Assembly (NCBI RefSeq): GCF_019649055.1 | Contig: NW_026570321.1 | Coordinates: 434,001 to 498,000, forward strand | Direction of reading: 5' to 3' | DNA from: Paramacrobiotus metropolitanus | Lineage: Eukaryota > Tardigrada > Eutardigrada > Parachela > Macrobiotidae | DNA length: 64,000 bases | Part shown: positions 13-50,621 of the stretch, piece after piece | Numbering within the stretch: position 1 is the stretch's first letter | Layout: each line of letters opens with the position of its first letter | Translations under genes and position numbers: made by a program | The notes under the pieces: model-generated | The model's database searches: none | Seen by the model: the letters and a program-made list of their open reading frames with translations, nothing else | What the model was told of the DNA's origin: nothing

Positions 13-3000
13 CTTGAGCGTCTTGAGCTGCTTGCGAGCCAGGTGCCGGCGGATGCAGCACTGCACCAGCACAATTCTCCGCAGCGTTTTCTGGTATTTT
101 CTGCGCGCCAACCATCCACGCACGTGTTTCTGGATGACGATGGCTTTCTTGTGCCGTAATGCCGACATATATCGCAGTCGAGCCGCTCGTCCACGCGCCA
201 GGGATTGCAGTAATACTGTGGCTTTGTGGATTTTCGCATAGCGCCGCCGAGCCAAAAATCCCCGTATCGCTGCTTGGATGGTGGTAGCAGCGGCAGTGCG
301 GCGCATCTCTTGATAATGCCTGTAATTTGAAAAGTTTAAGTTACCATACTTTTACAGTGACTTACAACAACAAATTTGAAAAACTGACGTGGAGGTATGA
401 AAAAAATTGTAAATTCATATTTTTTTCTTAGACTACACATCCAGTCGCTGTTTTAAAATGATTACTGACCTCATTATTATTTCAATAACATACATTTAAT
501 CTTAAATTATTTCACAATAAAAAAGCCTCAGCCGGCAGATACCGCGTAAATAAAATAGCAAAAGGTCACAACTGCAAACATATTCACATGATCATACCTT
601 CTGGCAAGATATCCGCGCGCCATAGTTTGGATTTTGATCGCTATACTGCGTAGCTGCAGGAACTTCTTCCTGGCCAACCACCCGCGAATGCTCTTTTGTA
701 TGAGCAATCCACAGGCCATGCGGCGTTCTGACCGCAGTTTCTCCATGTAAGCGACTTGTCCAGCACGGAAGAATATCATGGTTTTGCCGAGTTTGTACTT
801 ATCCGGATCCGTAATCAGTTTCCGCACAATGATCTCCACGGTCTTGCGGATATTCTTCCGGTCAATCTCCTTGCTGTGGCACATGGCGCGATAGCGCAGA
901 AAGAAATCTTTATACGTCCATCTGTGAAAAAGTAATGCGCAAATTACAGATCTGATATGAGACAAGCAAAAATTAGCCATGTCAAAAATATTTCAATTTT
1001 TCGGAAACCAAACTGTGATCGAGTCTGTAATGAAACGCTTTCGAAACAACTTGACATGCAGGTCGTATTCATCCATTATCCACTGTTCTACTGTTTCCCC
1101 ATCAATAACAACAACCATTATTACTGTGTCCTAGTTTCAACTGCACAGTTTACGGGCGAAACAGGTAAGAAATAAAAAAACGCACAAATACAAATTTCTA
1201 TATCTGTATCGCCCCCAGATAAATGGAAAGTTAGAAAGTGCTACGAAAAAACACGACAAAAACCGTTAAAAGACCATGATATCGACGCATAACGGATAAA
1301 AAACATCACCTAGACCGAATAACACAATCCGAAACCGTACCTGGAGGGGAATCCCGCCGCACTGATCCTAATGGTCTCTAGCACACCACACGCTCTCAGC
1401 TGCTGAATAGCCCGTTTAGGATCGAACTCAAAAGCAGCTTTCTCGTCATTGGGCTTGATACAGCGGACATAATGCGGCGTCGTCTTGGTCATCGTTGCCA
1501 TCAACGCCTTCAGCGAATCCTCAAACTGCGACCCCACCGACTGCGTGTTCATCTTCTGCCCTTGACCGCTCTTCTGCGGGACGACTTTCGTCTTGTCCGG
1601 CGTCTTACCGGCACTTTCCGGGGTGTCGGCAAAGAGTTGTGCCACCAGGGTGTAATCACTGGCGCGGAGAAGGTTGACGAATTCCTCGTTCATCGTGTCG
1701 CGGTTCTTATCCAGGAATCCATTGCAGTCGTACTCTACTTTGTCGGCGAAGTGGACGACGATGAAGGATTCGTTGGAGAAGCGGGGTTTTTCGAAGTACT
1801 TCCAGGCTTTGTCGGATTTTTCGCGCTCCTTGGCGGTGGTGTACATCTTCTGCACCCAGGACTGATCGGAGCCTTTCGGAACCTTCGTACAAAAAAACAT
1901 AAGGAATTAATAAAAATTGCCGTTTTCATTAATCGATACTGCGTAATATACAGTTCGAATGAAATTTCAGCCGGCTCAGTGGAAATTACGAGCGCCTTAG
2001 ATCGTTAAAGAATTTGCAATCAGTACAAGCAGTAAAGTGCTAATCACGAATTACTGTATCTGACCATTCAATAAAATGCTATCTGCGTATAAATTGTCTT
2101 GCATACAGTGCAACGATACAACATCGTTCTATGCTTTTGCACACATCTTTATCGTTCTTTCCAGTTTGCAAAGCGTTATCTTATTATTAACAACTGGTTT
2201 CCGTTTTCAACAACGTTGCTGGATTAACAACATATCCCTATTGACCAGCATTCTTGATACTCATGGGTTAACGTAGGAAAGTGGCTGTCCATCCTGTCCA
2301 CTAAATGCGCCTTCCGATAGCTACGTACTCTAGAGTCAAGATGTTAAAAAATCGAAATGTTCATTTTTTCAGTTTCAAAACACCCATAAACAGGTTAACA
2401 TTAACTCAATGAGAAAACCTCTTTCAGTTTTAACTTAAATTCAAGCGCTCTCACACGCATACAGCTTTCCCGCTTCCGTATCTTACTTTGCATTCCTCAT
2501 CGAGGAGATCCAGAATACCCAGTTTCCCTTCAATCAAATCGATGCAGGGTTGGTTGTCGAAGAAATCAATCATCACCCATTCGATTTCTTCCTTAATGTA
2601 TTCCTCTTGTTCCAACTTGAATACATGGATAACGAACTGCTGTTGGAGCTTCTCGTTGACGTAATTGATACAGAACTGCTCGAAACTGTTCCGCTCAAAC
2701 GTCTCGAACCTGAACGAAAGACACACACAACCTCCATTATTATCGGTTTATAGATACTTAGAAAATAGAGTATGCGTTATAAGTTACGGAGCAAAAAAGC
2801 TGCATTAATCGGTTAAATGACATGCACTATTCATTTTCAACAGATTATTGCATGGAGACAATTAATTATTTCGCAACCTGAAAATGAGTGGGATACGAGC
2901 CATTTTACTACGGCCAATGTTCAAAAGATAAGTTCGTCTAGAATCTTGACCAATATGATAAAAGAGCGACTAAACTTCGCTTTAAGCGATCGTCAGCACA

Positions 3001-6000
3001 GGATAACATTAAATCCAAGTAAAATCACTACAACCATGCCGTGAAATACATATTCAAATGCGGAGAATAATTACTATAATGTACTGGACAAGGTTCACAG
3101 AAAATACAAATCAACTAAAACACTAGGGAATTTTATATCAACAGTAATTAGCTTATCGAAATATTGTTGCGAAACGAAATTAAAAATCGTGTGCTGCGAA
3201 ATTTCGCCGTTTTAAAAGCTGAAAAAAAAACCAAACAAGCTTTACAAAACGTACCCGTAAATATCCAGAACACCGATGAAATGGTGCGGTTGGCGTTCGG
3301 GAATGAGTTTCTTATTGACATGCGCCACCACCCAGTTGAACAATCGGGCATAGATATGCTTGGCGAATGCATCGCGACCCGCTTCCGCCTGTATTGGCAC
3401 AACAAATAACAATTGCATTACTGCATTCAGTTAAATCCATTGTTGCTGGTGTGTTCGCGGCATGTAATCGCCCAGTGTGATTTGTGAAACGCAATGCCGG
3501 CGCACAAACCTCTTGCAGCTTTAGCGGCTTGATCATCTGTTCGCGTCCGGTGACCAGTTTGCGCCGCGTCAGCCACGTGCTCAACTGGTTGGCGTTGATG
3601 CCCAGGAGTTGGGAAAAAATGGCCAAATGCACATCATCAATCTAATACACAAAAAATCGAACATTTTTGGATGCGAGTAACATCTGAAAAGGCTGTCGCA
3701 CAGCAATAATTATGTAAATTTAACTGTCACAAAAATATTCAGTACAAATAATCGTGAAATCATCAACCTAAACTGTGAAACGGAACGATTTAAACGCTCA
3801 CCAGTACCTCAAAAAGGCTGCCGCGCTCACATAATATTTATAACGTCAAACTCAAACCACAAAAAACTCTCCAGAAGTACAGAATTGCAAAAGTTTAATA
3901 TCGTTACCAAAACAAAACAGTTTGAACGAGTTAACAGGTATAGTATTAAATAAGGGTTTCATTGTCGTGAGAATCGAGGCGCCATGCTATGTGGGATGCC
4001 ATTTTACTACAACCAGCCATACTAACACACCTCTAATGAATGTCCAACAAATCTACCGATCAGAGATGCACACAACCTTCTTACGGAAATTATTCGTTTT
4101 CTAATGCGGATATCTCTGCTCGGCTGTAAAAGCGTTCAGCTTTAACTTCGAAAGTCTCCGGGAACGATTTCCGAAAACTTTATTTAATGTCTTAATCTAA
4201 TACGAAAATTTGCATTCTGAAATGCGGCGACTCAGTGAGGTGATATTCTTTCGCAAATGTTGTTAACAAAAGACGCTAAAATAAAAACATCAACCACTAG
4301 CGTACGCCATTACATACCTCTATGGAACATGTTTCATGATCCTTGGAAAAGAATCGAATATCACCCAAATGCAGAATGGACGCCAGTATGCGGAAGACAA
4401 CGTCTTGGTCACCCTTGGGAAAGGCCAACAAGTCCAGTGCATCACAGGTCGTACGGAAATCTTCGTAATCATCCACACCGTCGATTTCCGTGTTGCCGCC
4501 TTGATTGGTATAGCGAAACTGTTCGGCTGCGCCTAAACACATTATTGGGATGACTAAATAATAAAACTAAATGTTAACAATAATAATCGCACTAAATGTT
4601 AAAAACCAATCTCGTAGACATCATGCAATGATTGTAGTAGTGGTCGAAATCTCCTAACAAAAGGAACGGAAATCTGCTTTATGAGTTTCCAAAATTAAAA
4701 ACATATGTCGTGAATTGTGGAATAATATCAAGATTTTTTTGCGCTCCTTTGAAAGTGTAAAATTACAACGATGTCCCTCACTCACTCAAAAAGTTGTTAA
4801 CGCGCCTGCATGCGACATGCAGTTAAACCAAAGACGATTTTGCGATCATTTTCTGCAGACATTTGCAAATTTCATTCGCAAATTCAACTGTAAAATTCTC
4901 GTGCAAAGAAAGAACGAAACGTGAGGACAATATACCTAAATGCAGATCCGGGAGATCGTTGGCGGCGGCACACAACTGATAAAAAATATGATAGTTCCTC
5001 TCTTGTGCGCTCTGAAAGACTACACGGGACTTTTCCAGCAGGTACGTCCGCATTTTCGCTCCGGTAATGGTGAAACGCTTATCGAAGTCAATCTCGATGA
5101 ATTTACCAAACCGACTGCTGTTGTCGTTACGGGTTGTTTTGGCATTACCGATAGCCTGCAAAGGCCATAATTAAACCAGTGAAAAACAGCGCTGCCAACG
5201 AACAGCTGTCCCACCTCCATGATGGGATTTGTGGCCAAGACACGTTTCTCCACGTTGGTCTCCGTGGTGGAACCGTTGACGGAGGCGAAGTAACGCATGG
5301 CATATTTGGCACTTTACTGACCGTTTACCGCGCAATCTGATCAGGATCCGGTCGACGATCTTCAAATTGATACAGCATCTGTTTCAGCCATGTGAATCAA
5401 ACTTCTGCACTCCGATACATAAAATAATTATAAACTACACAAACTGCTAACTCACTAAACTAACCAACTAGTAAACTTCTAAAAAATGCAGAACAGTGAG
5501 TCGAGTTTGCGGCTGCATAAATGTACAGTCTGCATATCCAAAATGCGTAGGAATCCAATACTGGGCAATCAGCACCGAATGCGTCATGTTAAGTCGAAAA
5601 AACCAAGCAACTAAACAACTTCAGCACCAAAAATTCCCATAAATGTGTAGAAAATACATGGAAAATTAAAACAGCAGAATGAGTCTCAAATCAGTTCGCA
5701 ACTGTTGAAAAAAAGGCCTTTCAAAGCTTTTAGCGAGAAGCATTTAAACAGCTTTTTCAAAACGAAAGTTATTCATACACCGTTTTTGGTGGAAATGTGT
5801 ATGCAGCATGGAGATGAAGATGCAAGTAGTTTCAAATAAAAACAAATTCAACAGATATTCAAAATTCCTACACTTTCAAATGACCTGTGTATTGTGGAGG
5901 TTGCATCGGCTAATATACACTGCACTACAATCATCTCAAATTACGGACGAAAAACCTTGGTGTTGGCTGTGCGCACAAGACGCCTCTCGTTTCAAAAAAT

Positions 6001-9000
6001 TAATGTTACGTTTTCCAAAATTAAAAACCGCACCTCTCCATTTTCGTATAGGCCTCCTCGGCAATGGCGAAGATGTGGGGATCTAACTCGTCCATAGCAC
6101 TGCCGCGGTACGTCTCCATGGTGTTCTGGTCGTAGATAAAGAGCTCCTGATACGGATTGATGGCCACCAGAACAATGCCGCAGTAGGTGTAGATGGAGTT
6201 GTGCTGGGTGAAGCGCACTTGCAAATTGTGCAGCACTGTCAAAATGGAACAACAGTGTATAGATTACTAACACCAGGGAGCCATTACAAAATCAGCAACA
6301 CCGAACACAGCAAAAGGCATCCGTACCTGCCGGCTCGTGCAGATAACTGAGCTGCGTCAGGTCGTTGTGACCGGAGAAGATGTCGGGATTGCGCAGCGGT
6401 GGAAGATCCTTTTCCGAGCTTATCTTCAAGCTCCGCGTCTGTAGATTTGAATTACATTCCATGAGCACGTTCCCAAAATACGAAACGATCATATACAAGA
6501 AAATCTCCAAAAATGCGAAATACTGCTACGAATTTTTAACTCACTCGTGTATCTGAAAAAATCATCAAATCCCAAATCGTCAAATTAATGTTAAAAGCCA
6601 TATCGAAATATGTGTCATTTAAAACAATATCGTGAGATTTGAGTTTTTTGCCAGAAAGCGGGTGAGCAGACTATAAGCACACTTCCCTACGATGGTCTTA
6701 CTCTTGCAACGATGTTTGACTACAGTATTCTAATAACGTAAGTTAAAATTATCCAAATATTATCAGCAATTTACAAATCAATGAAAACAAATGCGAACCA
6801 AATAAGATACATGTTCAAAATTTAACTAACATTACGAATACACTATTTTTTTTTTAAATTGACCACATTCTGATGCAAACAGGGCGGGTGCATGATACCA
6901 TAAAACTACTGGAATTTTTTTGTACAGTTGTAACATTAGTAAATCCAAATGACTTCAGTCCAAAACATAAGATCAGACGCATAAACATATACTGAATTCC
7001 TGAAGAAACATATATTAGTGCATTCCAATTTTGTACCGCAGCATCCTCCAGCCTGACATCCAGCGTCTGGCTTCCGGTCCGATAGTCCTCCAACAGAGTG
7101 GCCGTCTGCCACACGGTCTCCTCGCTGGGCACCCATACCGGCGTTCCCTGCCAAAGACACACAAAGCACACATTAATGTACCTTCCGAGCCGATGAGCAA
7201 TCTGCACAAACAAGCCAGTCAGGTGGAGAAATATGCCAGAAAAAATGACGTGTCATTTGGTATCCCATAAAGGATGCCCTTGACTCACGCCTCTTCACCT
7301 GGCCACCGGTGTCAGTCAATAATCGCACGGTGCCGCCGTAATATATGTACGCAGCCAAATCATTACTTGTGTGTTTATTCATCAAGCGGATGGGTTACGC
7401 TTGGAAACGTTTGAACACGATACAAAATGTGGTGACTTGAGAAAAGCGCTGCGCGATACACCGCCGTGCTGACAAAGTGGACAGACCTACCTGTGTGATA
7501 ATTTACACAGATATTTTAAGAACAACCGGGCGTTAACTCATAATATGTAAAAGTGGACACAATTTAAAATTTTTTTCAAAAATACTGATAACGTAATTAT
7601 AAGGTGCAATTCAATGCGCAAAAAATGTACACAGCCAGAAACGATTCTTGGCGCAAAAAGTTAACACAACAATAAACTTGTCAACGAAACAAGAAAGGTA
7701 GTAGTACAAGGAATATTAAAAACCAACTAACTGCTCACTTTGCAATGTACTGCAACAGCGAAGACCAAATTCTGCATGACCATACAGTATTGGACTTTTC
7801 ACAATCATTCGTTACGCTAACACAAGCTGGCGGTCTTTCAGTCGCAGTCATTTTACAGCTGATAATTACCTATGTAAATTTCTTCAACACAAAAATATGT
7901 ACAAATACTAAAGATACATTAAGGTACATTAAGGACACTAAAATACCAAATTCTATATTGTAATTGTTTTGCTGGATAATTCTATGCAGCAAGTTTAATC
8001 ATTATCAATCGCAATGAAACCGAAACCATACAAATCAAACTCGCTCTGCCTGCATTCGATCAATACTTTGTTGCTCAATGCATGAAACTCTTCAAAAAAC
8101 ATCTTTCAACAAGCCATAATGCAGAACGATATGGTTTCATCACATTACCCGTAGCGCACTCATATTTTGCGGATATTTTGTGCTCGACTATCGCCTCTCT
8201 TACCGAAGACTACTTAACCAAACAGACGCGACGACACACGAGCGAAAGTAATCGATTTTATGGTAAATATTCTGATAAAATTTGACAATTGTCATCCTCA
8301 CTGCACATCGGTCTTCCGTGTTTGTGCTGGCGGGGATGAAATTTGTATCGACAATCGTTAATTCTATCCACACTGTGCGCTCTGATAAGAAGAGTCAATG
8401 TAAAGAGAATAAAAGTGGCGTTTTTACAGCGGCGAACGGTGTTAGCTGTAAAATCTACGCAGCCAAATAATGGCCGTATTAATCGACAATAAATGTACTG
8501 CAAACCAGGCCATCGTAACGAATAGGCTTATTTTCATCGATGATTATTATATCAAAAATTCAGAATTCAATAGAAAAAGGATTCATGCACTAATTCTGGT
8601 GGAAAACGAAGCCAAACCCCATAAAAACGAATTTGCACAGCCAACTTCCGCTACGGAAGTAATCCGCAATAAAAATCAACCTTCAAATTTTTATATAAAC
8701 AGTCACTTTGCCAAATCCACAAAAAAATCAGAATTCAAATAAGTTTAGTTTTTATAAACGTGAACTGAGTTGGCACAAAAATACATGCAGTAACCAGCAG
8801 CACTGAGCAAATGCCGCACTGCGAAGCAAAAACAAGAAAAAAATCAGAAGAAAATTCCTACAGTACCGAAATTTAAATTGAATTAATTTTTAACAGCCAC
8901 GACTCATAAATACTCTTTTTGTTTTCATTATTGCCTATTGAAAAAATACATCATCATTGTGGCCTTTTTAATTTCTTATAAAATTATCAGCAACCCAATA

Positions 9001-11463: not shown

Positions 11464-14400
11464 ATGATTCCCTTCATAATTCGCTCGCAATGCCTGATCA
11501 TCGCTGTCATCATCCTGCCGCTGACCATCTCCCCCGCCATCCCGGACATCCCCGCACCCCTCCCGAAATCTCGCCAACTGCGCGACGCTCCCACCACCCC
11601 CAGCAGCAGCACCGCCCCGCCCCCGCCCGTGGTGGAAATTAACGGCACGGTGCACGTTAGTGGGATCCGCGTGGAATCCGACAACGCCAAGGGCTTCGAG
11701 CACGGCGTGGTCAAGGTGGTGGCCGACGAGGAGACGGCCATCCGGCTGTTCGGCAGCGGCTTTATCAACTCCACCTCGGTCAAGTTCACCTCGCATAGGG
11801 GACTGCGCGGGGAGGATTGTGTGCGGTATCCCACCGGGGATGTCTTTGAGCTGCGACGGGATGCGCCGGATGCGGAGACGGATGATGTGGCCAGTGCGAC
11901 GGTGGTGCTGAATGAGGGCCATGAAAAACCCTGTAAGTTTCGTCGGTGCTAGGGATGGTGAACACTGAACATCAAATGAGTGACAGCTGAAAGCGGAATT
12001 CTTTTTGTGCTTAAGATATTCCGTGAATTGCCGCGAACGTGGTATAATGGCTTAACCGATCCTATTAACAGTTCACTTAGTCGTTCACTTAGTTGTAGAC
12101 GGAAATATTGCAATGATACGTTTGGTGAATGTGTTTTAACAATCGAATTTTTGTTCTTGTTTCCTCAATGCTTTAGTGAAAATACTGCACGCGATTTGTA
12201 TAAAAATGCATTCTGAACTGCAACATTATACAAGCTTTCAGTGACATTTTTTTAACTGTTGTAAATGCTGCAGGCGGCAAGGAGTTTGTATTTATTTTCT
12301 CGTCATGGTTGGTAATCTGTTAGTATTCTGGATTATGATGCACTGTCATTCTTAAAACATTGTATAATCAAAAATACGCGCAATCTGCAAGAAATAGCCA
12401 GTTATATTTCCTCGCATCTTTGGTTGTAGGGATCTACTACATGTGCGTGAAGCATCCCACGGAGAACAGGTGGCTGCACCAGGGCGCCGGCTCCGCCGTC
12501 CAACTGCAGGCGATTCCTAAATACTGGATACCGCTGTGGATCCAGATCCTCATCATCATCGTGCTGCAGTGTTTATCCGGCCTGTTCTCTGGCCTCAATC
12601 TGGGCCTCTTGTCACTCGATCCCACCGAGCTGCAGATTGTGGCCAGTGTCGGGGCACCGCAGGAGAAGAAGTATGCCAAGAATATCATTCCGCTGCGGAA
12701 TAAAGGCAACTTTCTCCTCTGCTCCCTGGTTATCGGCAATGTGTTGGTCAATAGTACGCTGACCATTTTCCTGGATGATCTAACGTCGGGATTGTATGCG
12801 GTTATTTTCTCCACGGTGGGGATTGTGTTGTTTGGTGAGATTGTACCGCAAGCGCTGTGCAATCGGTTTGGATTGGCGATTGGATCGGCAACTCGATGGA
12901 TAACATGGGTAAGTTGCTGTTAATTTTGCTGTTGCCGTCAGCAATTGTGCATCGTGGATCAAACTTTTTTATAAAATTAAAAAATATTATTTTTCAGTTG
13001 TTTAAAATTAGTATACTACTACAAAGGTGTTAGGCTGTTAATTGGACAGTTTTTTCTTTGTGATTAGGCAGTTATAGTGGATTTTTATTTATTGTTATTT
13101 TATGATACTAATTTCAATCTTTTGTTACTTTTGTTCCATGTTGAATCAAAAATAAAAGAAATAAGAGATCCTGTGTTGGTGCTTTTCTTTCTTTTCTATG
13201 GTGCTTCTCTTTCCGATTTGTTCGCTTTCTGTGGAATCTGCAATGAAACACGTGATGGTTTTTTCCGAATTCCTAATGATTTTAACAGTAGTCGGAAATA
13301 GGGTTTTATGCTGAAGATAGTCTGATATGAAATTACTGACAATGCATTTAAATAACTAGTGGTCGTAGCACTTTGGCTTACGTAGTCATTCAAGGCGTGT
13401 GATTTCTGTGGTGCCCGTGCCAAACGTTATAACTGAATTATCAGTCGAGCAAACTCTGAATATAAATTTTTGTTTAATTAGGTCGTGATGGGCATTACGG
13501 GTGTTATTTCCTGGCCGTTGAGTAAATTACTGGACGTCCTCCTGGGTCGGGAAATCGGCACGGTATACGATCGTGAACGTCTGGTGGAGCTGATCAATGT
13601 CACTAAGGAGCATAATCTGTTGGAAAACGACGAAGTCAACATCATTTCGGGAACGTTAGCGTTGAAGAGGAAGACGGTGGCTGAAATTATGACGGCGATT
13701 GATGAAGTTTATATGTTGCCGTACGACGCTGTACTGGATTTTGATACATTAGCAGAAATTACTCGCGAAGGTGCGTACCAGGGATGGTTTTAAAAAATAA
13801 AAAACTTTATGTGAATAGTGGTGGTAAAATCATCTTGCAGCACCGATATTTCGAAATTCGGTTGCCAGCTTGCCATTATGTTTTTATGTTTCCATTTTTA
13901 ATTCAGGCCTGTTACTCTGTTTTACTCATTTCAACTGAGATTAGAGATTTGACAGATACTCCAGGAACCGTAGTGTGATGGCATATACAGCGCGGCGTGA
14001 GCCTTTCCCCATCGTAATGCAATTGCGTTTTGAGTATTGCAGAGTTGACTATGATCTTTTTGAAAATTTTTTACTTACGTACTTTTAGGCTACACCAGAA
14101 TTCCCATTTACGAAACGAAGCGGGATAATATTGTCGGTCTGCTCAACATCAAGGATATGGCGCTACTGGATCCGGATGACTGTACTTCCGTCAAGACATT
14201 GTGCAAATATTACGGCTATGAGCTGCGCTTCGTGTTCGAAGATACCACTCTCGATGTCATGCTGCGTAAGTTGGGATGATCAGTACGAGAATTCTCTATA
14301 GTTTCTTTGAATTTTTCCCAGTTCTCCGTGGATTTGGTGTTATCGAGTTGTCTGACCCTGGAATAGTGAAATTTTAGTGTAATCGACCACCATTCAATCG

Positions 14401-16427
14401 TTTTTTAAATAGTAAGTGTTCTTTACTCTGTATTGATTAGCAGGGGAGTTTTAGGTTGGGTTTGGAAACATACTGCAGTTAGTGTAGTGTAATGGACATT
14501 ATGGACTATGGCAGGTTAAATTAGAAAGCCTTTGCGTCTATATAAACGCAAACTATGCCAGAAAAATCAGTATTTTGTTCTCTTGAAATCATCTTTTTTA
14601 TTCTGCTTAGTGGAACCGCTGAATTTTGGAACTTTTTTTTTCCTGATTTGTAAGTGTGCTGCAAATTAAAGATCGGATAAATGCTGAGAAGTATCAGCAT
14701 AAAAATTGTGCTGGTGGTTGATTAATAAATGTATATTAAAAATATTATATTAAATATTTGTGTTTATTTTTTACAATATTTATTTTCTGACTTCTTGCAG
14801 AGGATTTCAAACAGGGTCACTCGCACATGGCCTTCGTTCAGAAGATCTCCAACCCCGAAGGTGGTGACCCAGTGTACGAGACCCTCGGCGTGGTCACCCT
14901 GGAGGACATCATCGAAGAAATGATCCAATCCGAGATTCTCGACGAGTCCGACCGAGATGCCCGCGGGAAGAAGAACCTGAAAAAGGACTTCACCGTCTTC
15001 CAGGCGCGTCCCATGTACACCTCTCTCATCACACCGCAACTGCAGCACGCCTCCTTCCAGTTCCTCAGCACCTCGGTGGACCGGTTCAGTGAGACGTTGA
15101 TCAGTGAACACATTTTGCGTCGGCTGATCCGCCACCCGGAAGTGGCCCGCATGATCAAGAAGAAGCCCAACGAGGTGACGCCGACGTTTGTCTACAAAAA
15201 GGGCCGGCCGGCGGATTTCTTTGTGTTGGTGCTGGAGGGTCGCGTGGAAGTGCAGATTGGCAATGAGGATCTTGTGTTCGAGAGTGGACCGTTTACGTAC
15301 TTTGGCAAGACGGCGTTGGGCGGCGAGTTGGGTTTGAAGCCGGAGGAAATTGCGCAATTAGTGAAAGCGCCGTTTCCGGCGTTGGCCACCGGGAAAGCCA
15401 GCTTGCCGGGGGCGCGGATCAGTTTGGACAAGTCGAAGATGACTGGTAAGACGGGCATTTTGTCCGTTGTTTTGTTAGCTGCTTGTTGAAGCGTACTAAA
15501 ATTTGGAAAAATTTATGAACTGCGCATTTGTAACGCACTTTGCTTTGCTACAAGGTGCTCGTTAATTTATTCCGTTGTTGTGACTTTTTTCCTACCTGGT
15601 GGTGAACAGGGGCACTAGCGGTTTTTTCGACTTTTGACTTTCGTTAGCGAGGCTTGCGCACGGTTTATTCGTACGTTGTGTTGGCGACAATTATTTAAGT
15701 GGTTGTGCGACTGTTTTTTTACAACCGGAAACGTTCAAAAATTTTCCCTCTGTAAACTCTGCGGATTGAAAACGATTTAGTCATTTGTTGTAGCATTTTC
15801 AAGTTTACGATTGATGTAGTATTAATTGATTGCTAGCATAGTGCAGTGGCCCATAAACGTTCGTCCTTGAGCGTGGTGCACAATCAGAACTTTCTATGTT
15901 ACTATTATTTGCTATGTAGTAATGCATACTTTTTTTCAGGCACCTTTACTCCCGATTTCACCGTATACGCCACATCCGACGTGCTATTTTTGCGTATCAA
16001 ACTGGCCCACTACATCGCGGCCTTGCGCGCCACCGCCCTGGAACGACAACACCGCCCCTCCGGCCTGATCCCGTCCAGTCCCTCCGCGCAGAACATGCCC
16101 ACGGAGATCGACACCTTCGGGCAGGAGATGGAGCGCGTCCGGACGGACGACCTGAACACCACGGAATTCCTGCCGGCCGTCACCGCTACCACTCCGACCG
16201 GCGTGGCCGCTGATCCCAACGGGTCCGCGGTCTTCATTAAGATGTCGGCGCCGCCCAGTGCGGATAATCTGCTGCGCACGCCCAAAGGTGAACGGGCGCA
16301 CCGGTCGCGCTCGCGTTCCTCCTCACCGTCGAGGCGGGACGATGAACGGGATCAGCTGCTGCCGCCGGCGGGAGCACCGAAGGAAGAGAGACAACGATCG
16401 CCGAGGAAATCTCCCGAACGAAAATAA
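11464..16427 (+). CDS. CNNM/ACDP family metal (Mg2+) transporter
   Basis: Cyclin-M family membrane protein involved in divalent-metal (magnesium) transport or homeostasis. Six exons join in consistent phase: 11464-11932, 12430-12908, 13482-13770, 14089-14265, 14801-15445, 15940-16427, giving 848 residues. Domain order: hydrophobic signal-like N-terminus (residues 1-25); extracellular segment to about 160; DUF21 membrane region in exon 2, with [40 protein letters not shown] and [19 protein letters not shown]; a CBS pair across exons 3-5 (for example [36 protein letters not shown]); a cyclic-nucleotide-binding-like domain (about residues 560-720, [15 protein letters not shown]); and a Ser/Arg/Pro-rich tail. 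Length and architecture match animal CNNM2/CNNM4. The start was chosen because it gives the signal-like peptide immediately. AATAAA overlaps the stop region. Which vertebrate paralogue it matches best cannot be told. Confidence 0.96.
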
Positions 16428-38721: not shown

Positions 38722-39180
38722 TAACGCGCTATGCGTAGTATGCGCGTATTACGTACGTGTTATGACGTACGTGTTGTCAGTTCCGTTACGTACGATGTGC
38801 TGTTCTTATCTAACGCATTTGATCGCTGATTCCATCGACGATTCTGGTTGAAGGAATGAGTCTGAAGTTTCTAACTTCAACTAAATCTGTGAGCTTGTTT
38901 CTAGCTGAAAGGTCGTGTGACTCTAGGTTAGAAGGAAGTTCATATCTCGTTCTGTTCTGTTCTGTTTGTTCGTTCGGTTCGGTTTGGTGATTAAACATTT
39001 GGGAAGTTCCTGAGTGTTTTGGTTTCGGTAACTTTCGTTAGGCACAGCAATCCGCTCGTACCTAGCGGAAGTAGGCAGTAGTACCACTTACGGAGTCCAG
39101 AGCATATTCCCACTCTACCGATTGAGTAGGTTTGGTCATCTAGTGCGGTTGTCGCGGTGCGACTTCCGCATAGCATGTCA
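38722..39180 (+). repeat. Left LTR
   Basis: 459 bp, starting TAACGCGCTATGCG and ending GCATAGCATGTCA. It contains dense ACGTACGTG-type palindromes in its first 80 bases and a TTCTGTTCTGTTCTGTTTG pyrimidine run. No difference from the right LTR was found by eye. Confidence 0.92.
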
Positions 39181-39194
39181 TGGCGCCCAACGGA
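39181..39194 (+). promoter_or_regulatory. Primer-binding site of the LTR element
   Basis: TGGCGCCCAACGG directly abuts the 3' end of the left LTR. It begins with the TGG expected to pair with a tRNA 3' CCA end. Which tRNA is used cannot be decided without aligning to the host set. Confidence 0.7.
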
Positions 39195-39546
39195 TTTTAA
39201 CAGCCCCTGGGAATCTGGATCGTCTGGTAAGTGGTACTGTTTTTTCAGCGTTTTGTGTGTTGTGTGGTTGTGTTGGTTGACCGCGTGGATTCTCAGAGAA
39301 TCCCGTGAGGCAAGGTTCCTAAGTGAGAACCAGGTGCTTGCCCGCAGTGACCTTAGAGGGTTGCGCGAGGCACGGTTCCTAAGTGCGAGCCAGGTGCTGG
39401 ACGGGAGTCCGTATACTGTACTCGTACTGGTAATTGGTACGGTGTGTACTGAGAAGTGGTGGCGTAAGCCCTGTTATTGGTGTAGCAGACTTACATCCGG
39501 GTTCGGTGACCTGGATTGCTTGTCTGTTGTTTGTGAAGCAGTTGCA

Positions 39547-42465
39547 ATGGATGGTACAGTCACTGAACCATCAGCATTAACCGCTGAACATGAGGATGGT
39601 GTGGAAGAGCCATCAACGGGAAAAAGTAAACCGCCCCGTCGAAGAGGGATGATTAACGTTGACGAGTTTGAAGCCATGCTGAAGAAGGCGGATTATTTAT
39701 CCCCGCCTACAGTGCAGTGGTTTCTACCAGAAGACGAAAATGTTGGTGAATTTTGTAAGAAGTGGGAAATTGTTCTCCCACGTACTGGAGAATTGAGTCA
39801 GGAGTGGGTAGAATATGATCTTAATGGTGGTAAAAAACCAGGTGGCTATGATCAGTGGATCCAGGCAGGAAGGAAGATCCCCGCCCGTAGAACGATTCAT
39901 CTGACCCTGCATGATTACGATCAGCAGTATGGCACTGAACTGCATGAAAAATGGATGCAGTATCTTGCCAACAAAAAGCCTGTTCAGTCAGCAGCAGATA
40001 GCAGTAAAGCTCGTCCAGGGTCGGATGTGCAGCAAAGCGGCAGTCTGCAAGCTGCAGTCAATGAGGGCAATGCACTGTCTGCCAGTGGCTTGAGGTGCGG
40101 TACTGAAAAGGATACCGTGGTAATTCAACATTTGGACCTGACAGAAATGAATAAGGTTTTGGAGCAAATTAATAATGCTCCAGATTATTCAGCTGTTGTT
40201 ACTCAAGATCATGATGATAGTGATGCGGAACTGGCTGCGGTAGATAATCAGCGTATTGAAGACGCTGATGTTCACTACAGTCAGAAAGTTGGGAAAGAAA
40301 GCGATGAGTCATCAACCGCTGCCGTAGTTGAACAGTTACGTAAAGAACTGGACGCGGAAAAGTTGCGATATCATGCGCTGGTTTTGAAGCATGATGGTTT
40401 AGCTGATAAGCATAATGATCTAGTTGATAAATACGACGGTTTGGTTGATCGTCGTAACGAGTTGGCTGATCAGGTGAACTTGCTTGGCATTATGCGTACT
40501 CGAGACGCAAAGTTGATGCAGGACGCGTTCGAGCACGTAAACAAAGAAAGTGAAAAGTTGCAACTGGAAAAACGAAAGTTCCAGTTAGAGAAGGAGCAGG
40601 CGCAAAAAAGTTTTCAACAAGGCACAGCTGCCTTGAATAAAAAGTATGCGAGTTTTTTGGCTGAACAAACAGCATTTAAAGTTGCTGTTGATAAGTGGAA
40701 AGTTGATCGGAATAGTAGACGCCATTCAGTAAGAGATGACGTCAACTTTGTCCCGCATGTCGAAGCAGATCGACGCAGCGTAGTAGTGCAGGATATGGCT
40801 GAACCTGTACGAAAGCTGTACAGCGCTGTTCATAAACCTGTCTTTGTGGTAAAGGATAACCACAAACTGGAAGATTTTCTGGAGTTACGTGAGCGTGCCC
40901 ACAATTTGCAGGAATGTTTGGGTGAGTCGCGTAGTCCCTCACCAACGATTTCTGAAGTTAGCACGACTGCCTTGAGTAAAATGGAAGCAAAGGTTGCTGA
41001 ACTTGATCGTCGCTTAAAAGAACAGGAGGCCAAGGGCGGTAGTACTGTTTCCGCTCCGTTCGACATGGATAAGTTTACGAATGCTATGAAAGGTGCATTT
41101 AGGACGGATACAATGTATCCGGAGAAATTTGATGGGAAAACGGATACAAATAAGGTGGAACAGTTTATCCAGAGTGTGGATAATTGCAAAAACCACAACA
41201 GTTGGTCTGATGGTGACGTCATTAGTAAATGCCTGTCGCGCTGTTTTACTGGTACGGCACTTACCTGGTATCTCGATAAGTATGATTCCAATAAGATGTT
41301 GAAGTGGTCTGAATGGAAGAAAATGATCCGGGAACATTTCTCGGATGAGAAAGATTTAATGGCCGTTCGTGATAAGCTTGCTGATCGTCATTTTAATAGT
41401 GACGATACACCGAACTCGTATGTGGACTGGTTCACTACGTCGTTCAAGAAGCTGGATCTGAACGAATCTGAACGTGTGTACTACCTGAAGCAGGGATTGA
41501 AGAAGAACCGTTTCTTTTGGTTCAAGTATATGGAAGAGAAAAGAGTGGCTGATGTCGAAGAGTTTTTGTCAGAATTGAAGCTGCAGTATAAACTGCGTAA
41601 TAGTAACCCTTGTGCTGTTTACTCTGATTCAAAACAGTTCGCTGGCAGGAAGCCAGTTGATGCAGATACCAGTGCAGCTAAGGCTGCTAGTAATGAGGCG
41701 AAGAAGTCCGAAGGAAGTGCAGTTGATAATGGTAAGCAGGTCACCATTAATTACGCGAAGTGGTATTTTCCAGATGGACAGCCGATATGTTTTAAATGCC
41801 ATGGTGCGCATGTTGGAAAAAAGTTCACCAGTTCGGAACCGCGTAAGCCGATTACAGCGGGACCGCCGGATCAGGTGATTAAGGCTTACATGTTGAAGAA
41901 GTCAATGGGAAAGAATCCCGAAAGTAATAGTTTGGGATCGTTCTTGATGCGTAGGCCGGAAGTAAATTCTTTCACTGTGCAAGTTAAATGTGCACAAGTT
42001 GCTGAAGGTGACGAAGCTTGCAGTGGGGGCGATGCCGCCCAGGTTAAGTTCTGCTCGGTACGCCATCCGATGGGGCGCTCGCTTTGCAGTGGGGGTGCTC
42101 AGGCTCGTGTGGATTGGCGTCGGAAGCAAAGTGGCAGTGCTTATGTGAAGCGCTTGAAGTTTCTGATCAAGAATCCCGAGGCAGAGATGAGTAGGGATGA
42201 AAAAGAGATCGTGAAAGGATTTCATGTTTATCGTGGTATCGTGTACCGTAGCAAAGGCGGTAGGTACGGTAGACACCGCGTAGTCGTACCGGAAGCTAGC
42301 CGTCAGGACTTGTTGCGAGACTGCCATGAAAGCTTTCATGCTGATAATTTGCATGATTATTGGTCAGTCCGTAAGTATGTTTTGCGGAACTATTACTGGC
42401 CTGGAATGAATGCTGAATTGTGGAAAATCGAAGCACAATGTGAGCAATGTAGTGCTCATGTTTAA
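39547..42465 (+). CDS. Gag-like polyprotein fused to integrase H2C2 zinc-binding module
   Basis: Starting at ATG 39547 (MDGTVTEPS) gives 972 residues; the frame is open upstream to 39157, but that part reads through a repeat-rich leader. In order: an acidic N-terminal region; a long coiled coil (around 40330-40620, with repeated DGLADKHNDLVDKYDGLVD-type heptads and a K/E/Q-rich run); a retrotransposon gag domain (41111 to about 41600, YPEKFDGKTDTNKVEQFIQS, GTALTWYLDKY, WKKMIREHFSDEKDL); a damaged zinc knuckle CFKCHGAH with the final Cys replaced by Phe; then, without any polymerase, the integrase N-terminal module (VYRGIVYRSKGG, CHESFHAD, NYYWPGMN, CEQC) and a stop. The gag-to-integrase join, about 41900-42150, is best explained by internal deletion. 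Confidence 0.85.
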   Translation: MDGTVTEPSALTAEHEDGVEEPSTGKSKPPRRRGMINVDEFEAMLKKADYLSPPTVQWFLPEDENVGEFCKKWEIVLPRTGELSQEWVEYDLNGGKKPGGYDQWIQAGRKIPARRTIHLTLHDYDQQYGTELHEKWMQYLANKKPVQSAADSSKARPGSDVQQSGSLQAAVNEGNALSASGLRCGTEKDTVVIQHLDLTEMNKVLEQINNAPDYSAVVTQDHDDSDAELAAVDNQRIEDADVHYSQKVGKESDESSTAAVVEQLRKELDAEKLRYHALVLKHDGLADKHNDLVDKYDGLVDRRNELADQVNLLGIMRTRDAKLMQDAFEHVNKESEKLQLEKRKFQLEKEQAQKSFQQGTAALNKKYASFLAEQTAFKVAVDKWKVDRNSRRHSVRDDVNFVPHVEADRRSVVVQDMAEPVRKLYSAVHKPVFVVKDNHKLEDFLELRERAHNLQECLGESRSPSPTISEVSTTALSKMEAKVAELDRRLKEQEAKGGSTVSAPFDMDKFTNAMKGAFRTDTMYPEKFDGKTDTNKVEQFIQSVDNCKNHNSWSDGDVISKCLSRCFTGTALTWYLDKYDSNKMLKWSEWKKMIREHFSDEKDLMAVRDKLADRHFNSDDTPNSYVDWFTTSFKKLDLNESERVYYLKQGLKKNRFFWFKYMEEKRVADVEEFLSELKLQYKLRNSNPCAVYSDSKQFAGRKPVDADTSAAKAASNEAKKSEGSAVDNGKQVTINYAKWYFPDGQPICFKCHGAHVGKKFTSSEPRKPITAGPPDQVIKAYMLKKSMGKNPESNSLGSFLMRRPEVNSFTVQVKCAQVAEGDEACSGGDAAQVKFCSVRHPMGRSLCSGGAQARVDWRRKQSGSAYVKRLKFLIKNPEAEMSRDEKEIVKGFHVYRGIVYRSKGGRYGRHRVVVPEASRQDLLRDCHESFHADNLHDYWSVRKYVLRNYYWPGMNAELWKIEAQCEQCSAHV

Positions 42466-46438: not shown

Positions 46439-47965
46439 TTAATGTCCAATGTCGACTACGGCATCATGCGACACACTGTGTGTCAGGGTCAGCCGCCGCG
46501 GCAGATGGAACAACGGCATCACGCGGAAATTGCCGTCGTTGCGACGGTGTTGAATGGCTCGCCAGACGATCTCCCGAAGATCCGGCAAGGATAGCGTAAA
46601 GATAATGGGATAGATTACCGCTTCCAGCTGGTACAGCATCATCAACCAGAAGACGGTCATGGGGTACTCATCGACTGCCAGAATCGGAAGTGCCACGGCC
46701 GCCGGCGTCCAACAAATGAAGACGGTAATGGTCACTATTGTTAAAAGAAGAAAAGCTTTGCTTTCGGCTCTCACGACAGGGCTTTTCTTCGTGGTAAGAT
46801 GAATGGGACTGATCATGGCTGCCTACAATGAAAAAGAGCAAATGCAGATAGTTTTAACATCCGGGAGATCATGTAAAATGCAAGCTATTGTGTATCTTCA
46901 GTTGTAGTTTTACAGAATGCAATCTTGGCATATATTGCTGCGCTTTGCTGGGACATCTTGATGTAATTACAGTACAATCATCAGAAATACGAATTTTTTG
47001 TTACAGCGAACGCAAAAATTAACATTCTGTTTACTCTTTGCAGTACGTACTGAGGTACGTAGACTTTTGTGTGCAGTGCCCACATTTTCCATTTAAAAAA
47101 TTATAAACTGAAACGTAAAAAATAAAAAAAATAAAAAATATAGCCTTATCTAAAATATGGGCCATGAAAACAGGTTATCAGCGCTTTACTGATACTTAAT
47201 TACAGTATATCTATATACGAGTGCATATGTACTCGTATTTAAGAACAGTACAATACATGTACCTGTACCGGCGTTGTGATGTTCGCTAGATCTTTGCGCG
47301 ATTCCTTGCATTCGCTTGCGACGGAAGTAGACAACCAGTGGATACTGACCAAGCGTTACACCCAGCGTAGCGAGTGAAAGACCCATGTAGAAGTATAGCC
47401 ACACTTGCTGATAGGGCGACAGTGCAAAGTTCAGAACACACCCGGCTTCGGTTTCCGGTAGTCTGTAAACCATCGCGTCCACAACAACCACCGGTACGCC
47501 GATAGCATGACCGGTGATCCAGCAACTACTACATAGGGCAACTGCAATGCATGTGTTATGACGTTGACGGTACTGCACGGGGAAAACTATGGCGCAGAAC
47601 CGGCTAATGGAGATCGTAGTGTGCAGCAGAACTGCGATTCCGGACAGCGTCCAAAAGGCGTACAAATAAAAGGTGCACCAGGAACGACCCCAACACCACA
47701 TTGCGAACAGGCTGTTAATGGCGTCCAGTGGTCCACAGCATATCGCAAACGTAAAATTAGCCAGAAGGAGGGCAAAGGCGTAGACGTGAAATCCACGGCA
47801 GATATGAGAGTTTGCAATGTACACCATTAGCAAACTGCCATTCAGTAGAAACGTTGAAATCGTGATGGGCAGTGATACCGCAGGAACAACTGTCCAGGTT
47901 ACCGGGTTGGTTCCCGAGGCACAAACGTCGGCAGTGAAGTTGGAAAATGAGCTGTTATTCGCCAT
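46439..47965 (-). CDS. Rhodopsin-like (class A) G-protein-coupled receptor, divergent
   Basis: Two exons on the minus strand, 47965-47263 and 46818-46439, join in phase to 360 residues. The start MANNSSFSNFT was chosen because it gives a short N-glycosylatable N-terminus; the frame is open further upstream (to 48169) but adds an atypical hydrophobic lead. Seven membrane segments are visible: about PAVSLPITISTFLLNGSLLM, VYAFALLLANFTFAICCGPL, LYAFWTLSGIAVLLHTTISI, AVALCSSCWITGHAIGVPVV and WLYFYMGLSLATLGVTLGQY in exon 1, then LLLTIVTITVFICWTPAAVA and FWLMMLYQLEAVIYPIIFTL in exon 2. CWTP in TM6 is kept. The TM3 DRY is SRF, and the TM7 NPxxY reads YPIIF. Ligand cannot be predicted; a lineage-specific orphan receptor is likely. 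Confidence 0.85.
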
Positions 47966-48165
47966 TTCGGAAGTCATAAGCCAGTCAAAAATTTTAAAGG
48001 CAAACAAAATTATTTTGGTGAGGTGCCTTATGCAGGGAGGAAAGGTCACACCCTTCGGTGCACACTTTGAACGGACCAGATTTCGCGATTTATAAGGCAT
48101 GATAATTGTATAAGTTTTTGTACCATTTGTACAAACCACGCGGAGAACCGCGACACTGAAACATA

Positions 48166-50621
48166 ACACTCGAGAAAAAATTAGTCGTTTCGAGGCAAAA
48201 TTAGGCAGCTCCGTGCTTATATTTTAATGGTCACCTAGGCTCTGTGCGAAAATTTAAAAACAGCCTCCAGCCCGCATGAGTAGTCCCTGAGACAATGTTA
48301 CCAATTAAACATATGTCAATGCGGTAGTTAAGATCATTAGCCGAATTTCAGGTTTACCCGAAATTATTCAACGGAAACGAGCGCATCCAGACATCGGGCA
48401 TTAAAGGGTATATCATAATTATTTGCGGTGCATAATGATTCCCATGCTTGTTAACACATGCAATGTAGCCCGAATGCATTAACTGACCTAATGGTGATAG
48501 CATGGCAAAATAAACATTACGTAGTGTAGTGTTATGCCTTGGTGATAGTGTCTCTCCTAACGCGGCATATCATATTATTCACGCATGAAACAAACATTTC
48601 AGTTAACGAGCTTTCTGCGAACCAAACCACAGCAGTCTTTATGATGGGCTGTGGTACAGTACAATACTTACCTACAATATATCGTATAGTGTTACAAAGA
48701 CCCATTAAGAAATTATCTAAGGTGCCACTAAGGAAACATGAAAGACCGGGAAGTCTAGAATATCGTTATCCGTACTTCCATTATATAGAATCCGTTTTTC
48801 CTCTTTGAAGACCGTCCAAGAAACCAATAAGAGTACCCACGAATGAGAAATGCTGTAATGGATTACGGGAAACAGCTTTTGCCGGGTGTTTCCTAAAATT
48901 AATGCGCAGATTCGTAATCCGTTAGGCTTTCGTGGCTGTTATACTGACGAAGATGCAGAACGTTGCACTATGCACAGTCCGCAGACAATGAGATACATAA
49001 TTTTAGGTTATCAAGACAATTGTAATGTTCTCCAAAATTTGATAAATAAAAGTGGAATAGGAACGAGTATACAAAACGGGCATACAAAACTCTAGGCTTT
49101 TTTTGTCAGTTTTCGTCATTTGGACAAATGGGGCGTAAGCTGCGTAACTGTTGTGCTTTTGTCATTATGATACAGTCTTCGTTGCTAGTTTTCATAAGAG
49201 TTTTCCGGGGTATTCCGGATTCGTCAAAGATTTTGAATAACACTATCGAATTTGGCTGTTTTTTAATGCTTTTAAAGTTTGAAGCATTTTAACGCGAGGC
49301 TCCCAGCGAGCGGCTCGTTTCCTTTGCGGTAACTCATATTACGCGGTCATAAGACGACGTAACATCGTACGCACCTGAAGATACGTCAGAAAAATGCTCC
49401 CGTGGATAACCTAGATTTAATTAAATTTAAAGTTACTAAAAAATGCACCAGTTCGTTTATGACGGTTTCTGCCGTCTTGGTTTTCAATAGCTTACAAATG
49501 GCAGGTCTCTTCCTTCCGTCAAAAGGTTAATCAGAAATTTAAATTCATATACAGTAGCCGAAACACAAACACAAGCTACTGTAACGTACTAAACTACTGT
49601 AAGGGCGGGACGCTCCGCCCTCCTGAGTAGCTATTCGCTGTTTCTGGGGATTTCCACCCCGCACATTGCTGCGCTGTTTTGACGGATCTGCAACACAGTT
49701 GCACTGGCTGCAGGATCCTTCCTCGTTAGTCTGGTGTTGCTGCGCCACGGTGCGCATTAGATTCGGCAATAAAGCCTCATCCGGGTTCACCGCTGTTCGC
49801 TGTCGAGGATACGCGTGGCGCCCATACGGCCCCGCGTTATACTACCAAAAAGATAATTGTACCGTGCGCAGCCAGATGCTACAATTAAGGCGATTGGCGA
49901 TGCTGGGGCACAGATTCTGCCTGTCGCCTCAAAGTGTGTCCCGTAATACTTGTACTTTTCCATTTCACAAATTCCGATGTTCCATTCTGCAGTGGTACTG
50001 AAACCGCGCTTGATACAAATGCTATTGTTTAATAATTATCCGCTAGTTAATTTTATTAGGGCCGAGGGCGTAGTCTATTCAGCTTGACTACGATAGAAGT
50101 CAAACAGAAACAATGATTTCCTGCTACCAAAATCCATTTGGACGGTTGAACTAAGGCGCCGAGAGGCGGTGAGCTTGTGTCTCACCTGTCTTCTTGCAAA
50201 CCGTGCAGAGCAAACGATAGCCCGCTAATTATTAATCCTTCTTTATTAATTTTCGCATGACGTATGTACAGTATGTGGTAATGTACATACTTATCTAATA
50301 AACTCCTGCTTCGTGTTTACTGGATTGACTCAGAGAATCAGTCTTTACTCTGTCGGCAACTGGCGCCAAAATAATGCACTTAGGCCTGGGCCATTCAGGG
50401 AAGCTCAGGGAAAGTGGTGAGCAATGAGCATCTAGATGAAGTAATGAGAATCTGAAATCGCCATTTATTACAGAATGCTGCAAATGCTTGCCCAGTGCTA
50501 TCGCTAATGTTAAATTTTGCATGACATATCGAAAATCAACAATTCTGCATCTTTCTGGTATTTTTAAAAGCTCAGCATTCCACATTTTTAATATGCATTA
50601 ATTCGGACATATGTTTTTGAA
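48166..50621. other. Intergenic region holding one copy of a partial segmental duplication
   Basis: No gene supported. Two blocks, about 48600-48845 and 49859-50264, recur in the same order and orientation at 57086-57360 and 58233-58786. Sequence between the blocks is not obviously shared. Confidence 0.6.

Follow-up and report, generated by a model that had tools for sequence, protein, structure and literature searches.

The window, by which we mean the whole 64-kb stretch of DNA that was analysed (C101:434001-498000), carries a class V myosin gene on its minus strand from about position 7170. The best match of this gene among solved structures was myosin Va (E 1.8e-89), the best 11 rows were all myosin Va or Vc, and a profile search placed a DIL tail domain at C101:427450-428125, about 6 kb past position 1 of the window, which bears out the class assigned in the first-pass annotation. 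Motor, switch I, switch II, IQ neck and DIL tail follow one another in the same order as in chicken/vertebrate myosin Va (PDB 1w8j, 1oe9, 7plt); unlike in myosin Va, about 20 residues around the P-loop cannot be read in the sequence as assembled here. We judged the gene to be an ordinary class V myosin and the P-loop gap not to be a real feature.

Spliced alignment to a vertebrate myosin Va reference gave 12 exons inside the window and one just outside it (Table 1), a count that excludes one spurious piece at 5934-5885 which the aligner was forced to invent at the P-loop. The tail beyond the first coiled-coil exon was read by eye, the DIL domain excepted. The aligned motor and neck were open without a frameshift and 55-60% identical to the reference by eye, IQ repeats were present in the neck, and the sole in-frame stop and the sole unalignable stretch of the aligned gene both fell at the P-loop. 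Of what had been described before, the joining of the exons in one frame and the normal switch I (NDNSSRFGK) and switch II (DIYGFE) were recovered in the spliced alignment, while the count of thirteen exons was not.

Table 1. Features of the class V myosin gene within the window.
Feature	Position	Strand	Remarks
Exon 5' of the affected stretch, VLHNLQVRF...EEAYTKMER	6034..6235	-	ends in phase 2 at AG/gtgcgg
Interval without recognisable P-loop coding	5312..6033	-	bulk composition like the gene's other introns; one copy in the assembly
Probable garbled 5' part of the P-loop exon	5312..5378	-	last 50 bases GC 0.52; one copy; left limit 5378 guessed from an AG
GCGCGGTAAACGGTCAG, degraded match to A-G-K-T-V-S coding, then five extra bases TAAAG	5317..5333	-	
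Next exon, intact portion (...NPIME), which follows immediately on the P-loop in the protein	5215..5311	-	
Switch I exon (NDNSSRFGK), intact	4936..5155	-	
Exon ending in switch II (DIYG/FE), intact	3255..3387	-	acceptor 3388 or 3382
Intact exon	2487..2709	-	spliced alignment
Motor exon up to ...ISAAGFPS(R), intact	1341..1882	-	
IQ-motif neck exon	13..306	-	tail runs on beyond the window to the DIL domain

Three further features of the window were read by eye. Open frames at 12339-15489 (plus strand) resemble a gene that we take to be a CNNM-type metal transporter, an open frame of 1111 amino acids at 39130-42465 (plus strand) resembles a retrotransposon gag-pol with an integrase zinc-binding end, and one of 345 amino acids at 47186-48223 (minus strand) presumably belongs to a G-protein-coupled receptor.

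The GESGAGKT P-loop expected of a class V myosin was absent from the assembled letters, which are themselves suspected to be wrong, and four kinds of search agreed with the earlier report that it is not found between 6034 and 5311. Six-frame reading of 6033-5312 showed no P-loop coding on either strand. A degenerate P-loop DNA pattern with up to 3 mismatches had a single match in the whole window, at 11907 and thus outside the interval, and at least one match was also obtained in 20 of 100 shuffles. Among 52 enumerated candidate exons of phase 2-2 the best ungapped score was 13, compared with a self score of 86, and ungapped scans with four P-loop peptides over the window and 9 kb downstream placed none of the best five hits per peptide in the interval. 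The best three-frame P-loop score in the interval (16) was equalled by 266 of 300 shuffles. No N occurs in the window; letters are present at the P-loop site but do not code for it.

The other myosins of the same assembly (169,799,020 bases in 533 contigs as searched) served as controls. Myosin-head matches were found in at least 12 loci, including the gene described here, and a P-loop was readable in all 11 of the other listed loci, as GESGAGKT in five (seven exons) and as GESGSGKT in six; its loss is therefore exceptional in this assembly. A kinesin P-loop pattern had 11 matches, which were not reconciled gene by gene and were not used as a control. No class V myosin besides the gene on C101 was found, and no other listed myosin locus lacked a P-loop. 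The search of the assembly for another myosin V that had been suggested earlier returned none: the sole other DIL match, on C4, lacked a myosin-head match and is presumably afadin (a guess). In one muscle-type locus, recognised by E-N-T-K-K-V (C37:796774-797613), three successive P-loop exons are apparently mutually exclusive alternatives. A comparable cluster is described for Daphnia and scallops in PMC3912159, and the word 'tardigrade' is absent from the text of that paper.

An intact P-loop could have been missed if it were split over micro-exons or lay on a contig absent from the searched copy. Intron positions near the P-loop do vary among the paralogues, and the searched copy has 533 contigs compared with the 684 scaffolds (170,483,395 bp) given in PMC8277472. 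Together with the lack of any COX1 match in the searched copy, this suggests that some contigs are absent from it, probably including the mitochondrial one; the absent contigs total only about 0.7 Mb. No candidate lay within the interval, and all 7 exact GESGAGKT matches in the assembly were in other myosin loci. A 44-residue P-loop query matched 11 places in 9 loci, none of them on C101, although the query was not exhaustive, since it likewise failed to detect the P-loops on C5 and C34. We therefore consider a missed intact P-loop distinctly unlikely. The interval 5312-6033 and its last 68 bases each matched only themselves in the assembly, and there is therefore no second haplotype copy to compare.

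We examined the exon edge at 5311/5312; the first-pass annotation had expected the P-loop on a short exon of its own between 6034 and 5311. The last 50 bases before 5311 had the GC content of the gene's exons (0.52 in both), compared with 0.22-0.38 over the final 50 bases in seven other long introns; GC-rich 50-base windows also occur inside other introns (maxima 0.44-0.54). Splice dinucleotides are present, GT at 6033 and AG at 5313-5312. The acceptor at 5312 has 6 pyrimidines in 16 positions, the fewest by one base among those scored (7-12 of 16 at ten others, that at 306 being unscored), in keeping with the earlier remark that it has no pyrimidine tract. As judged by eye from the genomic letters, the P-loop shares an exon with the helix that follows it in 10 of the 11 other loci, corresponding to 12 of 13 P-loop exons; in the exception (L007) an intron apparently lies right after GKT. 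By analogy with this paralogue exon structure, the P-loop would be expected to be contiguous with A-K-Y-A-M at 5311. Contiguity in the paralogues and the exon-like GC before 5311 both speak against a separate short exon.

A possible remnant of the P-loop lies at this edge. As first noticed, GCGCGGTAAACGGTCAG at 5333-5317 is followed by TAAAG and then by the exon, and when 5333-5311 is divided as GCG-C-GGTAAA-CGGTCAG-TAAAG-T it resembles A-G-K-T-V-S codons, a P-loop-like end just 5' of 5311. Codon-degenerate DNA alignments anchored at the exon edge were equalled at 5 of 800 random sites for AGKTV and at 6 of 800 for GESGAGKTV, and a longer-peptide DNA alignment at 15 of 700 sites. GKTVS with at most one edit occurred at 4 places in 128 kb, one of them the exon edge, and AGKTVS with at most two edits at 14 places in 128 kb. 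The DNA-level tests came after a protein-level null and involved several motif choices, which makes their small fractions somewhat optimistic; the frameshift-tolerant protein-level remnant test was not significant (reached by 25 of 150 shuffles and 54 of 350 real sites). No remnant of D-E-R-N-Q-S-I-I-V was detectable at the left edge, directly after 6034. Because several scorings were tried, we regard the putative A-G-K-T-V-S remnant as suggestive only, though the motif had been flagged before any of them. Paralogue structure, exon-like GC, the low pyrimidine count of the acceptor and the degraded coding match together indicate that the P-loop codons probably make up the 5' portion of the 5311 exon and are scrambled where they stand. 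Given the paralogue exon structure and the exon-like GC, 5312 is probably not a splice acceptor at all, with no intron there, and the equal phases at 6034 and 5311 are probably coincidental.

Within CTGATCAG (5328-5356, minus strand), in the probably garbled stretch, lie the 6-base palindromes GTCGAC, GGATCC and TGATCA, one of them inside an 8-base palindrome; an equally dense cluster occurred at 471 of 63,981 window positions, and the feature was noticed after the fact and not used. A vector or linker insert was rejected, since a comparison of 5312-5400 with plasmids gave 6 records among the matches listed, with E values of 2 or worse, which were taken as chance. A foreign chimera was likewise rejected on the composition of the interval, which resembles that of the gene's other introns.

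The most radical reading, a real class V myosin without a P-loop, takes the exon edges at face value. The mRNA would join 6034 directly to 5311 (M-E-S-A-K-Y), the protein would be a non-motor or rigor-like actin-cargo tether, and the old P-loop codons would be decaying. The exons flanking the gap do join in one frame, both edges being phase 2, so that skipping keeps the frame as originally claimed, and the GT and AG needed are in place. However, 5312 has the fewest pyrimidines of the acceptors scored and is preceded by bases of exon-like GC, and skipping would remove about 20 residues, presumably including, on structural reasoning, the strand that precedes the P-loop. Both switches are also unchanged, although the constraint of ATPase activity on them would have gone, a comparison that is limited to one sequence and for which no rate is measurable. 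We consider such a motor highly improbable. Of the interpretation given in the first-pass annotation, the absence of Walker A and the option of a sequence error have stood, whereas the evidence is weaker for a missing or decayed exon and hence for an encodable motor without a P-loop. The intact switches and the lack of another myosin V are more readily explained by a local error, or by a lesion of very recent origin, than by repurposing of the ATPase.

We rather favour an ordinary myosin V whose P-loop codons were garbled in place by a local consensus, haplotype-merging or assembly error. In this model the exon that is intact from 5311 onwards would have the P-loop codons in its 5' part, and about 60 bases would have been garbled in the assembly by small insertions and deletions, part of them beyond recognition. 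The cause would be a local error in consensus, in haplotype merging or in assembly, and the living animal would have a normal P-loop and a normal motor. We infer that the garbling is technical, not biological; a local error is favoured over evolution because everything else needing ATP is unchanged. PMC8277472 describes a Paramacrobiotus sp. TYO genome produced from R9.4 nanopore reads with Canu, nanopolish, Pilon and HaploMerger2, and the analysed assembly is probably that one. Against an assembly error, the Illumina polishing at 62x reported in the same paper should have cleared the majority of consensus errors, and ordinary nanopore indels alone would not account for scrambling of this degree; as to an error by chimera, the native bulk composition of the interval points to no foreign sequence.

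The same observations bear on a genuine recent lesion, in which a small complex indel would have destroyed the P-loop end of the exon in the strain or in one haplotype, leaving a null or near-null allele and an incipient pseudogene. The differences at the exon edge are small and indel-like, the composition of the interval is native, and the rest of the gene is intact, as expected if the lesion were very young. However, no other class V myosin was found in the assembly, and from what is established about myosin V the loss of a sole copy would probably be costly; some 60 bases scrambled without other damage in the gene would also be an odd pattern of mutation. We regard a recent lesion as unlikely, and it keeps what weight it has because of the Illumina polishing and because nanopore errors do not usually scramble a stretch to this extent.

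Myosins lacking a usable P-loop have precedents, class XVIII being one example. PMC5583752 records myosins with non-functional P-loops, and the point in common is that no usable Walker A can be read in the sequence as assembled. The gene analysed here differs from those myosins in being class V, in its unchanged switch I and switch II, and in having scrambled DNA at the P-loop rather than a substituted but readable loop. It also resembles the 'Partials' described there, which are incomplete through assembly problems, in that the gene is good apart from the lack of a short piece of its motor, although here there is no run of N and letters are present that do not code for the P-loop. A literature search for ATPase-deficient pseudomotor myosins found nothing, and in one for myosin V and tardigrades the latter went unmentioned among the matches listed.

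If the gap is an artefact, it serves as a caution that about 60 scrambled bases of conserved sequence in a polished long-read assembly can imitate the loss of a catalytic site. There is only a very slim chance that the species makes an ATPase-dead class V actin-cargo tether, other motor features kept, as its only class V myosin. If it were real, an animal whose only class V myosin has no P-loop would imply that cargo tethering can outlive the ATPase, which would be surprising.
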